From the NCBI GenBank assembly GCA_016215335.1, contig JACRKE010000025.1, positions 1 through 32,362 of the forward strand: 32,362 bases of DNA, in the 5' to 3' direction. The stretch comes from Candidatus Vogelbacteria bacterium (GTDB lineage: Bacteria > Patescibacteriota > Minisyncoccia > Phycocordibacterales > JACRKE01). The notes under the pieces were generated by a model that did no database searches, was not told the origin of the DNA, and was given only the letters and a program-made list of their open reading frames with translations. Shown one piece after another: positions 1,126 to 32,230 of this stretch (its first letter is position 1; each line of letters starts with the position of its first letter). Made by a program: the position numbers and the translations under genes.

Positions 1126-1162
1126 GGCTGACACTTGGAAGCTCGGCTTCCAAGTGTCAGCC
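1126..1162. repeat. Perfect palindrome ggctgacacttggaagc-tcg-gcttccaagtgtcagcc overlapping the 3' end of the HIT gene
   Basis: 17-bp perfect arms, 3-nt loop; contains the stop codon of the 1157..1645 CDS; could also serve as a terminator. Confidence 0.75.
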
Positions 1163-4747: not shown

Positions 4748-7700
4748 ATGGAAGAAAATGTAAAAAACTTGACTGCCAATGAGCGTGAGTTACGCATTCT
4801 TAAATTCTGGGAAGAGAATAAGATGTTTGAAAAGTCTCTTGAGAAAACAGCTAGCAAAGGTGCCGCCTCCGCCAAAGGCTCCGGCGAGCCAAAGGAGTTC
4901 GTCTTTTACGAAGGTCCGCCGACGGCAAACGGAAAACCTGGCATCCACCATCTCGAAGCACGCGCGTTCAAGGATGTAATTCCGCGCTACAAAACCATGC
5001 AGGGTTTCCATGTGCGAAGAAAAGGCGGATGGGATACTCACGGACTTCCTGTAGAGCTTCAGGTTGAGAAAAAACTCGGTCTCAATTCAAAAAAAGCCAT
5101 TGAAGAGTACGGTATCGCAAAATTTAACAAAGAGTGCAAGGAAAGCGTCTGGCAGTATCTAGAAGATTGGAACAAATTTACGACACGCATCGGCTTTTGG
5201 GTTGATCAGAAAAATCCGTACGTTACTTATGAAAACAACTACATTGAATCAGTTTGGAATATTGTAAAGACTGTAAACGAAAAGAAGTTACTTTTTAAAG
5301 ACTACAAAGTAGTGCCATGGTGTCCGCGTTGTGGCACCGCGCTTTCGTCGCATGAGCTAGCACAGGGATATCAGGATGATAAGGATATTGCGGTGAAGGT
5401 GAAATTCAGGGTGATTGAAGGAAAAGCACGAAGCACTAAATCTGAAGCACGAAACAAGCACGAAGCACTAAATTCAAATATACAAACTGGGAATACGTAC
5501 ATTTTGGCTTGGACGACGACTCCGTGGACGCTACCGGGGAATGTCGCCTTGGCGGTAGGAGAAGAGATTGAATACGTGAAGGTTAGAAGTCAGAATCTGG
5601 AAACTGGAATCTTGAATAATTACATACTTGCAAAAGCAAGACTGGATACGCTTGGCGCGCCTTATGAGATAATTGAAAAACTCAAAGGCAGAGATTTGCT
5701 AGGGCTCGAGTATGAACCGCTTTATCCGTTTACCGAAAATTTGATCGAAGGCAGTGAGAAAGAGAAAATGGTTAATGCTTATAAGATTTATCCCGCGAAA
5801 TTTGTAACCACAGAGGACGGTACAGGCGTAGTGCACACTGCCGTCATGTACGGTCCCGACGACTTTGAACTCGGTAATCTAGTCGGCCTTCCGAAGCACC
5901 ACTTAGTAAAACTGGATGGAACCTTTGTTCATGGCACAGGATTTCTCGAAGGCCGATTTGTAAAAGATGAGGCGGTTGCCGTCGACATAATCAAAGATTT
6001 GGCGCACCGAGGGCTACTCCTCAAGAAAGAAAAGTACGAACACACTTATCCGCACTGCTGGAGATGCACGACACCACTCATCTATTACGCGAGAGACTCA
6101 TGGTATATTCGCATGTCATCCCTTCGCACCGAACTCGTAAAAGAGAATGAAGGAATCAACTGGGAGCCTGATTATATTAAAGAAGGGAGATTTGGTGAGT
6201 GGCTTCGTGAGATTAAGGATTGGGCCATCTCTCGCGAGCGTTACTGGGGAACACCTTTGCCTATTTGGACTACCGAGAGTGGAAAGATAGAAGTCATCGG
6301 AAGTATTGAGGAGATAAAAAAGAAAGTTAAAAAGTCAGGCAACAAATACATTCTGGTCCGTCATGGCGAGTCCGAGGCGAATGTTCTGGATATTTTCAAT
6401 TGCGATCCTACGGCTCCAGTGCATCTCACTGAAAAAGGCAAGACAGAGGTTAAAGATTTGGCTGCCAGATTAAAGAGTTCAAAGATTGATCTGGTGGTTT
6501 CATCTGACTTTGTTCGCGCCAAAGAGACGGCGAAGATTATTTCAGACCATCTAGACATTTCGGGAGAGAATCGACTTACTGAAGCTCGTTTCGGTGAAGT
6601 AAATTTTGGAGAATTCAACTTAAGACCGACTTCGGAATATAGGGGCTTTTTCAAAACGCCGGAGGAGCGGATGACTATAACTCCCGCCGGAGGCGAGTCA
6701 TACATGGATGTGCGCAAACGTGTGATGTCTGCCCTGGAAGACATGGAAACAGCATACAAAGATAAAACTATTTTGATTGTCGGTCACGGCGGTCCACAAT
6801 GGACTCTGGTCAACGGTTGTCATGGCGAGACTGCGAAAGAGATGGCGAAAGAGGCTCAAAATGGCGCGAGTATCAAATTGGGAGAGATATATAATATTGA
6901 CTACTCGCCATTTCCCCACGACGAAGATTTCGTCCTCGACTTGCACAAACCATACATAGACGAGATAGAACTTGTCTCGGATTCCGGCGAGCCGATGAAA
7001 AGAGTGAAGGAAGTAATGGATGTCTGGTTCGACTCGGGGGCCATGCCTTTTGCGCAGGATCACTATCCTTTCGACACCAAAGAACCAATTTATCCTGCGG
7101 ACTTCATCTCTGAAGCCATAGATCAAACTCGCGGTTGGTTCTATACGCTTCATGTAGTCGGTATTCTCATGGGACGTGGCAAGGCGTACAAAAATGTAAT
7201 CTGTCTCGGACACATCTTGGATGCGCAGGGTAAAAAAATGTCGAAGTCGGTCGGGAATGTTGTAGACCCTTGGCTCATGATGGAAAAATACGGCGTCGAT
7301 ACGCTAAGGCTCTGGATGTATTCAGTTAATCAACCCGGTGAATCGAAGAATTTTGATGAAAAGACAGTAGCTGAGCTTCATAATAAATTTTTCAACCTGC
7401 TTTACAATGTTCTCGCATTCTACGAATTGTATGCAGGGACACCCGGTGTCCGGATGCATTTGGACACCGGGTGTCCAAAATCTTCGAATGTTCTCGATCA
7501 GTGGATAGTGGCTAAGCTGGACGATTTAATTCAATCAATCACAGAAAGCATGGATGCGTACCAAACCTTCGGGCCGGTTCGCATGACAAAAGACTTTATA
7601 GACGATCTTTCAACTTGGTATCTGCGTAGAAGTCGTGACAGATTGAAAGATGGAGACAAGGATGCCAAGGCGACGCTTCACTATGTTTTAATTACGCTTT

Positions 7701-8284
7701 CTAAACTAATTGCTCCATTTGCACCATTTGCCGCCGAAGATATTTGGCTAAGACTTAGAGATGATGGTGATCAAGAAAGTGTGCATTTGGCGGAGTGGCC
7801 AGAATTGGAAACTAGAGACTGGAAAATGGAAACTGGAATAATTCAGGACATGAAGCTAGTGCGGGAGATCGTTACAATGGGCCTCGAAGCTCGCGCTAGG
7901 GCAAATATAAAAGTCCGCCAGCCCTTGTCTTGTATCAAGCTACTAGCTACTAACTACCAACTACCAGCTACTTTTTTGGAACTCATAAAAGAAGAGCTTA
8001 ATGTTAAAGAAGTTGTATTTGTTGATTCATTGGAAACTCCAGTCGAGCTTGATCTGAAAATTACTCCCGATCTGGATGCCGAAGGCAATGTACGTGAGCT
8101 TATGCGTTCAATTCAGGAAATTCGTAAAACGAGTGGTCTACAACCGCAGCAAGAAATTAATCTTACTCTACCCGAGCGATACAAGACCAATGTACTCAAG
8201 TTTGAGCAGCTACTTCAGAAAACTCTAAAAACAAAGCAGATTAAATTTAGAGACCAGTCAGATCCTACAATCGAGGTGGTTTAG
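4748..8284 (+). CDS. ileS: Isoleucyl-tRNA synthetase with an inserted histidine phosphatase domain
   Basis: FVFYEGPPTANGKPGIHH, AWTTTPWTLPGN, ISRERYWGTPLPIW, DVWFDSGAMPFAQ, KMSKSVGN; internal RHGES…GHGG domain. Confidence 0.95.
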   Translation: MEENVKNLTANERELRILKFWEENKMFEKSLEKTASKGAASAKGSGEPKEFVFYEGPPTANGKPGIHHLEARAFKDVIPRYKTMQGFHVRRKGGWDTHGLPVELQVEKKLGLNSKKAIEEYGIAKFNKECKESVWQYLEDWNKFTTRIGFWVDQKNPYVTYENNYIESVWNIVKTVNEKKLLFKDYKVVPWCPRCGTALSSHELAQGYQDDKDIAVKVKFRVIEGKARSTKSEARNKHEALNSNIQTGNTYILAWTTTPWTLPGNVALAVGEEIEYVKVRSQNLETGILNNYILAKARLDTLGAPYEIIEKLKGRDLLGLEYEPLYPFTENLIEGSEKEKMVNAYKIYPAKFVTTEDGTGVVHTAVMYGPDDFELGNLVGLPKHHLVKLDGTFVHGTGFLEGRFVKDEAVAVDIIKDLAHRGLLLKKEKYEHTYPHCWRCTTPLIYYARDSWYIRMSSLRTELVKENEGINWEPDYIKEGRFGEWLREIKDWAISRERYWGTPLPIWTTESGKIEVIGSIEEIKKKVKKSGNKYILVRHGESEANVLDIFNCDPTAPVHLTEKGKTEVKDLAARLKSSKIDLVVSSDFVRAKETAKIISDHLDISGENRLTEARFGEVNFGEFNLRPTSEYRGFFKTPEERMTITPAGGESYMDVRKRVMSALEDMETAYKDKTILIVGHGGPQWTLVNGCHGETAKEMAKEAQNGASIKLGEIYNIDYSPFPHDEDFVLDLHKPYIDEIELVSDSGEPMKRVKEVMDVWFDSGAMPFAQDHYPFDTKEPIYPADFISEAIDQTRGWFYTLHVVGILMGRGKAYKNVICLGHILDAQGKKMSKSVGNVVDPWLMMEKYGVDTLRLWMYSVNQPGESKNFDEKTVAELHNKFFNLLYNVLAFYELYAGTPGVRMHLDTGCPKSSNVLDQWIVAKLDDLIQSITESMDAYQTFGPVRMTKDFIDDLSTWYLRRSRDRLKDGDKDAKATLHYVLITLSKLIAPFAPFAAEDIWLRLRDDGDQESVHLAEWPELETRDWKMETGIIQDMKLVREIVTMGLEARARANIKVRQPLSCIKLLATNYQLPATFLELIKEELNVKEVVFVDSLETPVELDLKITPDLDAEGNVRELMRSIQEIRKTSGLQPQQEINLTLPERYKTNVLKFEQLLQKTLKTKQIKFRDQSDPTIEVV

Positions 8285-14845: not shown

Positions 14846-15763
14846 ATGCAATTAAAATACATCGACGTTCATTCACACCTGCAGTTTTCAGCTTTTGATG
14901 CCAATCGAGAGGAGATTTTGGAGCGCATGCGCGCTGCTTCCGTAGGAACAATTGTTGTAGGAACTCAAAAAACCACCTCAAAATCATCAATCGAATTGGC
15001 ACATAGGACTTATCCACATACAGAGGGTTCCCCTCTGTATGTGGATAAGATGTGGGCAACAGTGGGCTTGCATCCTATACATACTTCTAAATCGTTCCAT
15101 GACGAAGCTGAACTCGGTGGCGGGGAAGCGGCGAAGGCTTTCACTTCACGTGGTGAAATTTTTGACTACGACACTTATTTGGAGATGGCACGAGATCCTA
15201 GGGTTGTTGCAATAGGCGAGTGTGGTCTTGACTACTACGAGCAAGTTGATGCTGAGGATCGTGAGACTAGGCTTGGAGCAGATTGGCGAGAGCGACAAAT
15301 CGATGCATTCTTGGGCCAGATTAAAGTTGCAAACGAAGTGAGGAAGCCCCTCATGTTGCATATTAGGCAAGTTAAAGGCTATGGAGGTGGCAAGGCCTAC
15401 GATGATGTGCTCGAGTTGCTCAAAAAATATTCAAAAACCCAAGCTCACGTGCACAGTTTCTGTGGGGACCCGGAAACTGCAAAAAAGTTTATAGACTTCG
15501 GTTGCACTCTCTCGTTTACCGGCGTTATTACATTTAGGCCTGAATACGCTGAAGCGGTCAAAGCCGTACCGCTCGATCGTATAATGGCTGATACCGACAG
15601 CCCTTACCTTTCACCTGTGCCTTACAGGGGTAAACAGAACGAGCCCGCTTACGTAGTTGAAATAATCAAGAAAATCGCTGAAATCAAGGAGTTGGATTTC
15701 GAAACAGCGAGAACCGCAATTTTAGAAAACTCATTTAGAGCCTTCAAGCTCGAACATCGTTAG
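14846..15763 (+). CDS. tatD: TatD family metal-dependent hydrolase
   Basis: IDVHSHLQF, VGLHPIH, IGECGLDYYE, DTDSPYL; ATG chosen at 14846. Confidence 0.9.
   Translation: MQLKYIDVHSHLQFSAFDANREEILERMRAASVGTIVVGTQKTTSKSSIELAHRTYPHTEGSPLYVDKMWATVGLHPIHTSKSFHDEAELGGGEAAKAFTSRGEIFDYDTYLEMARDPRVVAIGECGLDYYEQVDAEDRETRLGADWRERQIDAFLGQIKVANEVRKPLMLHIRQVKGYGGGKAYDDVLELLKKYSKTQAHVHSFCGDPETAKKFIDFGCTLSFTGVITFRPEYAEAVKAVPLDRIMADTDSPYLSPVPYRGKQNEPAYVVEIIKKIAEIKELDFETARTAILENSFRAFKLEHR
15010..15048. repeat. Palindromic repeat PAL-A copy 1, inside tatD: ttatccacatacagaggg-ttc-ccctctgtatgtggataa
   Basis: 18-bp perfect arms, 3-nt loop; 39 bp; further copies at 31148-31178, 32018-32051 and 32200-32230. Confidence 0.9.
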
Positions 15764-19714: not shown

Positions 19715-19773
19715 TTACAACATCACACAAGGTCCGACCCTGTAACAGGGTCGGACCTTGTGTGATGTTGTAA
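19715..19773. repeat. Perfect 59-bp palindrome ttacaacatcacacaaggtccgaccctgt-a-acagggtcggaccttgtgtgatgttgtaa
   Basis: 29-bp perfect arms around a single central base. Confidence 0.9.
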
Positions 19774-31147: not shown

Positions 31148-31178
31148 ATACAGAGGGTTCCCCTCTGTATGTGGATAA
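31148..31178. repeat. PAL-A copy 2 (left end degenerate): atacagagggttcccctctgtatgtggataa
   Basis: Core and right arm identical to the tatD copy. Confidence 0.85.
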
Positions 31179-32017: not shown

Positions 32018-32051
32018 CACATACAGAGGGTTCCCCTCTGTATGTGGATAA
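32018..32051. repeat. PAL-A copy 3: cacatacagagggttcccctctgtatgtggataa
   Basis: Identical core and right arm to tatD copy. Confidence 0.88.
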
Positions 32052-32199
32052 AGTGTTGATAAATGTTTCTCTCTAGGATTCAATGGATATTTTCTCGCGT
32101 CCGTCTGTACCGTATTCACTCCCATACTGAAGCCACTCGTCGTGAAAATCAGAAAAATCATTTACATTTGCAAAATATTCTGGAAAAGCATCTCTGTGC

Positions 32200-32230
32200 T
32201 ACAGAGGGTTCCCCTCTGTAGGTGTATAAT
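32200..32230. repeat. PAL-A copy 4 (diverged outer arm): tacagagggttcccctctgtaggtgtataat
   Basis: Identical core; right end changed to GTGTATAAT. Confidence 0.75.

Follow-up and report, generated by a model that had tools for sequence, protein, structure and literature searches.

An in-frame palindrome in a patescibacterial tatD gene as a probable terminal repeat of a RAYT-like transposase element

How does a palindrome come to stand in frame within a conserved protein gene, and what kind of element is it? The question is raised by the tatD gene in a window of 32,362 nucleotides, the whole stretch of DNA analysed here, which is contig C17 of the patescibacterial assembly G000 (836 kb, 46 contigs). 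In a profile search the tatD reading frame matches PF01026 with E=1.6e-64, and its match to TIGR00010 falls slightly under the cut-off. About 164 nt inside this gene, direct reading finds the 39-mer TTATCCACATACAGAGGG-TTC-CCCTCTGTATGTGGATAA, which a flanking C/G lengthens to a palindrome of 41 nt (15009-15049). The first-pass annotation had described the segment as a perfect 39-bp palindrome, in frame ahead of the conserved WATVGLHP motif. The palindrome is real, except that its two 18-nt arms enclose a 3-nt centre that is unpaired, and its place in the protein is as described, the in-frame product (T)YPHTEGSPLYVDK of 13-14 residues being immediately followed by MWATVGLHP. Folded as RNA, the 39-nt strand has a computed energy of -29.5 kcal/mol (z=-9.5), and dinucleotide shuffles give a mean of 0 matches to the 39-mer. 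The 21-nt core TACAGAGGGTTCCCCTCTGTA was found by direct reading to be free of stops in all six frames, while in the 39-mer TAA closes one forward frame. The features of the window are collected in Table 1.

Table 1. Positions of the palindrome copies and associated genes in the window.
Feature	Position	Strand	Remarks
tatD, TatD-family DNase with insertion	14846..15763	+	ATG at 14846, start MQLKYIDVHSH
Palindromic element in tatD	15010..15048	.	in frame as (T)YPHTEGSPLYVDK; absent from 27/27 readable orthologues
Intergenic copy	31149..31178	+	21-nt core plus TGTGGATAA
Copy on the 3'-end side of the decayed RAYT element	32022..32051	+	core plus TGTGGATAA, facing the relic, as in the intact C8 element at its 3' end
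RAYT transposase relic	32085..32204	-	40 residues, 73% identity to C8 RAYT residues 189-228, E=2.8e-15
Copy next to the truncated end of the RAYT relic	32200..32229	+	core plus GGTGTATAA
Second-family copy, intergenic	1134..1154	.	locus-specific palindromic flanks GGCTGACA...TGTCAGCC

The sequence evidence taken together indicates that the tatD segment is very probably a hairpin-forming terminal repeat, itself non-autonomous, of an element with a RAYT-like Y1 (HUH) transposase, and that it is probably mobilised by this transposase. Three lines of evidence bear on this assignment, namely the comparison with orthologues, the other copies of the palindrome and the gene that they bracket.

The annotation had expected orthologues to be shorter by about 13 residues. 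In the alignment of TatD from the order, every readable orthologue (27 of 27) has 2-4 residues where the present protein has 14, and none of them carries an equivalent segment. Within the same family, LANAY-SD-TWATIGLHP is aligned with LAHRTYPHTEGSPLYVDKMWATVGLHP here, a net gain of 11 residues or 33 nt, and the solved Thermotoga TatD shows a gap in the same position. KsgA carries the palindrome in frame as well, read again as the peptide TEGSPLYVDK; the loop that contains it varies in length, and no relative has the peptide. The full 39-mer occurs in frame in ychF of the sister genome, G001 (Candidatus Vogelbacteria CG10_51_16), and makes the protein there a net 15 residues longer than its G000 orthologue, with which it shares 76% identity, and than most of 18 further orthologues; in the alignment, the hairpin peptide occurs neither in the G000 orthologue nor in the 18 other orthologues. 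The in-frame element thus occupies different genes in sister genera, the 39-mer being found in ychF of G001 and the element in tatD and ksgA of G000. TEGSPLYVDK is the open frame common to TatD, KsgA and YchF. The net gains, as inferred from diverged proteins, differ by gene (33, 45 and 66 nt) and do not correspond to one constant unit. PepA of the WY3 genomes, where palindromes fill a loop, was also considered as a case of insertion, and it was left out of the count with a net gain of only 2-3 residues relative to solved structures.

Pattern searches, which diverged copies may escape, find ten copies of the family in the 836 kb of the genome: eight exact cores and two variants, one at C6:17558-17596, where TA is replaced by CG on both sides of the stem with pairing kept, and one at C28:8685, which has a 2-nt loop. 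A control pattern, read backwards, returned 0 matches. Two of the ten are in frame (tatD and ksgA), two surround a transposase gene on contig C8, two adjoin the relic of such a gene and four are plainly intergenic. The palindrome is therefore dispersed and not restricted to tatD, the case that the annotation had set against its own proposal; its in-frame copies are those of TatD and KsgA here and YchF in the sister genome. The annotation had further counted three other copies in the intergenic DNA of the window. The core is indeed present at 31149, 32022 and 32200, two of these sharing also the right-hand TGTGGATAA and hence 30 nt in common, but none is the full 39-mer. The copy at 31149 is intergenic, and the other two adjoin the decayed RAYT gene. 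The 30-nt sequence of the tatD copy is identical in ksgA and at intergenic sites. When the core was searched throughout the order with one mismatch allowed, 6 of 297 genomes matched. The matches in G109, G217 and G248, each single and mismatched, are likely due to chance, and the same is probably true of the hits in Clostridia, Lachnospiraceae, Thalassarchaeaceae and casp150, each of them a single copy.

The gene likely to mobilise the element, which the annotation did not include, is a RAYT-like Y1 transposase on contig C8. Here, two cores in inverted orientation stand on either side of a reading frame of 229 amino acids (851-1540) that matches Y1_Tnp PF01797 with 32.3 bits, above the gathering score of 23, and in which an H-F-H (HUH) motif can be read directly. 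Its sole NCBIfam match is NF047646 REP_Tyr_transpos, with 33.1 bits, under the cut-off of 80. As is characteristic of RAYT genes, the palindrome that flanks it has further copies scattered over the genome. The relic in the window corresponds to the C-terminus of the C8 protein and is located between the palindromes at 32022 and 32200; the palindrome at 32022 shares its inward-facing sequence with the 3' end of the C8 element (TGTGGATAAAGTGTTGATAAA as compared with GGTGGATAACTTGTTGATAAA). We read the arrangement at 32022, the relic and 32200 as the probable remains of a second copy of the C8-type element.

A complete element would accordingly consist of a hairpin with a TGTGGATAA-like flank, the RAYT gene, and an TTATCCACN-like flank with a second hairpin. 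The hairpin in single-stranded DNA is probably what the RAYT protein recognises, and solo hairpins would probably be moved or copied by it to other sites. Most of the copies that survive are intergenic; a few are in tolerant loops of protein genes, and insertions there would survive when the inserted nucleotides add up to a multiple of three. Because the 21-nt core is free of stops in six frames, a frame-neutral insertion would be read as extra residues, in the present case TEGSPLYVDK, which TatD, KsgA and YchF apparently tolerate with their function retained. The cell is thus predicted to make proteins that contain a piece of mobile DNA. The arms of the palindrome may in addition be lengthened by fold-back synthesis.

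The resemblance to Rickettsia palindromic elements (RPEs) that the first-pass annotation pointed out suggests a different account, in which the palindrome would be a Rickettsia-type RPE or a CGTC-tagged REP that has no dedicated transposase and was spread by another process. The behaviour is indeed alike. RPE-1, RPE-4 and RPE-6 are described, in PMC3733652 and its references 13 and 14, as short palindromes both in frame in functional protein genes and in intergenic DNA, and the palindromes of TatD, KsgA and YchF likewise lie in frame in unrelated housekeeping proteins and are absent from their orthologues. However, the RPE-4 and RPE-6 repeats, which PMC3733652 places in ORFs and reports without a transposase link, carry the CGTC tag, and no such tag is found next to the stem foot in any G000 copy. 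The present host, moreover, is a member of the Patescibacteria and not of the Rickettsiales, the closest named carrier of the 39-mer being Candidatus Vogelbacteria, and the family brackets its own RAYT gene in the same genome and adjoins the relic of it. We consider this account to be very improbable.

That the palindrome could instead be a functional site under selection which happens to overlap tatD, serving in DnaA-box titration or regulation or as a terminator or operator, is suggested by the flank TTATCCACA/TGTGGATAA, which is the consensus high-affinity DnaA box, and by the fact that four of the five exact DnaA boxes of the window belong to these palindromes; the strong fold of the strand and the position of several copies downstream of genes point in the same direction. 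Yet it is the core that is conserved and not the box, the same core being present in WY3 genomes without it, and DnaA-box function was rejected as the main reading on this ground. A terminator or operator some 164 nt into tatD would also be harmful, and the ksgA and ychF copies are at unrelated positions, which makes a selected site very improbable. The net gain of 33 nt in TatD is smaller than the 39-41 nt of the palindrome, so part of the latter must be derived from the site or altered in place, and one might then suppose that a lineage-specific loop of TatD became palindromic by chance or local mutation, without any insertion. The occurrence of the identical 30-nt sequence in ksgA and at intergenic sites, the 39-mer in the ychF of another genus and the result of the shuffles effectively refute this for the 30-nt common part, so that a local origin is conceivable at most for the outer left arm; for the segment as a whole we find such an origin extremely improbable.

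The 9-mer DnaA boxes TTATCCACA/TGTGGATAA are located at 15010-15018, 15040-15048, 31170-31178 and 32043-32051. Some RAYT-type proteins have DnaA-C-like domains, and their repeats are unlike DnaA boxes (PMC6006769). In the C8 RAYT protein no DnaA-C-like domain is seen, although its repeats do resemble DnaA boxes.

Hairpins bracketing RAYT genes, to which we assign the tatD segment, are found repeatedly in this genome and in the order. G000 has about ten RAYT genes of such kind, and most of them are bracketed by their own palindrome. The RAYT genes on contigs C33 and C14 belong to a second family, CTTGGAAGC-NNN-GCTTCCAAG, which occupies 16 places in G000 with at most two mismatches. It is in frame in RNase HII (22 residues longer than in most relatives), Tgt, Ung, a glycosyltransferase, and a reading frame of G001 that reads by eye as the tRNA thiouridylase MnmA, and also within RAYT genes. 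The two RAYT genes L176:1975 and L181:1711 (C33 and C14) have their own palindrome in frame at the corresponding place, and both share the extended flank CACCAA...TTGGTG. For the GTAAGG palindrome family no clear in-frame host gene was found. In the order, RAYT homologues are present in 54 of 89 genomes, and the same palindrome stands on both sides in 14 of the 29 RAYT loci examined, as compared with 0 of 250 control pairs. A point against the assignment is that in the WY3 genomes, which also have the 21-nt core, the RAYT genes detected carry other palindromes.

The copies of the CTTGGAAGC family have a constant core, and their flanks vary from place to place yet often prolong the palindrome, as in RNase HII (GCAATGGTTTA...TAAACCATTGC), at position 1134 of the window (GGCTGACA...TGTCAGCC) and on C33 (CCCATCTA...TAGATGGG). 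An extension of at least 4 bp is found in 8 of 14 copies, as against 3 of 182 mispaired flanks, and in the permutation test the observed total was reached in 0 of 20000 cases. For the flanks of the TACAGAGGG family it was reached in 92 of 20000, which is also significant but is partly due to something else, the constant right flank, and for the WY3 copies in 1852 of 20000, which is not significant. The palindrome pairs at RAYT genes elsewhere in the order behave in the same way: 5 of 16 arms run on past the shared core for 4 bp or more, in a sequence that differs from the partner's. At an orthologous locus of two WY3 bins (L018/L019) the difference is a change in both arms. According to PMC8794818, such stems can be generated and kept up through template switching at hairpins, and we infer that here it takes place after insertion or together with it. 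The pairing of the flanks might alternatively result from insertion into pre-existing inverted repeats or from selection for stem pairing. It is possible, although doubtful at present, that each RAYT hairpin insertion can extend its palindrome into the host flanks by fold-back (template-switch) synthesis, which copies the neighbouring sequence in inverted form; the mobile core would then have no more than about 21-23 nt, and each protein would gain a stretch whose length and sequence come partly from the host and differ with the site. If so, this would be a new route for mobile hairpins to lengthen proteins and would explain the varying in-frame net gains of 33, 45 and 66 nt. Hairpin-primed template switching, as suggested by the site-specific extension, might be one way in which new coding sequence arises.

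It is useful to compare the family with the known partners of RAYT transposases. According to PMC3733652 (Di Nocera 2013) and PMC6006769, RAYT genes pair with specific REP families and REPs can lie inside genes; the RAYT genes have on their flanks either GTAG REPs or, in the case of TIRYT, terminal inverted repeats. As in the REPtrons described there, a Y1/HUH gene is flanked here by its own palindrome, with several such pairs per genome and dispersed solo copies, some of them intragenic. Unlike in GTAG REPs, no GT[AG]G tetranucleotide is present 0-2 nt 5' of the hairpin foot, GTGG being confined to the 3' side, where TGTGGATAA is the conserved neighbour; each family has few copies, about 10-16, of which a noteworthy fraction lies within genes. 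The TIRtrons of PMC3733652, as characterised in its part on TIRs, have a transposase gene bounded by inverted repeats, some of them self-complementary, and solo copies that are repeated to a moderate degree. The present family likewise has terminal inverted repeats on both sides of its gene as well as solo copies, but direct reading does not find in the core the GGGGWSAS motif, which is reported there for the majority of TIRs and not for all, and the in-frame solo copies and locus-specific palindromic extension seen here are not part of that description of TIRs. The family is thus closest to the REP/TIR elements of RAYT transposases, working like an RPE and built like a TIRYT/REP terminal repeat. 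In-frame REPs are already known; what is new here is the patescibacterial setting and the missing GTAG/CGTC tag. We found no report of RAYT palindromes or in-frame palindromes in Patescibacteria in the openly licensed literature.

How RPE-like palindromes enter protein genes has been left open, since no transposase was tied to them; CGTC repeats are reported to lack one (PMC3733652). With in-frame palindromes and the Y1 transposase that they bracket in the same genome, the question becomes testable with one protein and one oligonucleotide. A streamlined patescibacterial genome appears to feed several palindrome families into conserved proteins, namely TatD, KsgA, RNase HII, Tgt and Ung, and where such proteins contain unusual insertions, these may represent mobile DNA rather than something ancient.

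Some further palindromes of the window and the order may be mentioned here. The primase DnaG of the two WY3 metagenome bins contains two hairpins back to back, with about 17-18 extra residues relative to solved primases, which speaks for insertion there as well. In WY3.bin67 and WY3.bin123 they are at L014:2387-2426 and L023:463-502 and are oppositely oriented; the doublet, which is REPIN-like and translated as part of the primase frame, reads RGEPSVNTEGSPLYTE in L014. Between the ssb-like and efp-like genes of the window, 19715-19773 is an intergenic, near-perfect palindrome of 59 bp with 29-nt arms that are 100% complementary, and its core ACAAGGTCCGACC resembles palindromes flanking RAYT genes elsewhere in the order. 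A long inverted repeat at 146-266, with 34-nt arms 53 nt apart and 82% complementary, is possibly a MITE, and its ATTTCGTAATTCA-type ends occur also in other genomes of the order. In ileS, a REPIN-like GGACACC hairpin doublet of 40 nt is in frame at 7437-7476 (AGTPGVRMHLDTGCPKSS); it was not counted as an insertion because the palindromes fill a loop with almost no net gain, about 2 residues relative to solved IleRS. The same IleRS gene (4748-8284) has a histidine-phosphatase (PGAM-like) domain, residues 535-710 (PF00300, E=1.7e-32), inserted within the class I synthetase domain.
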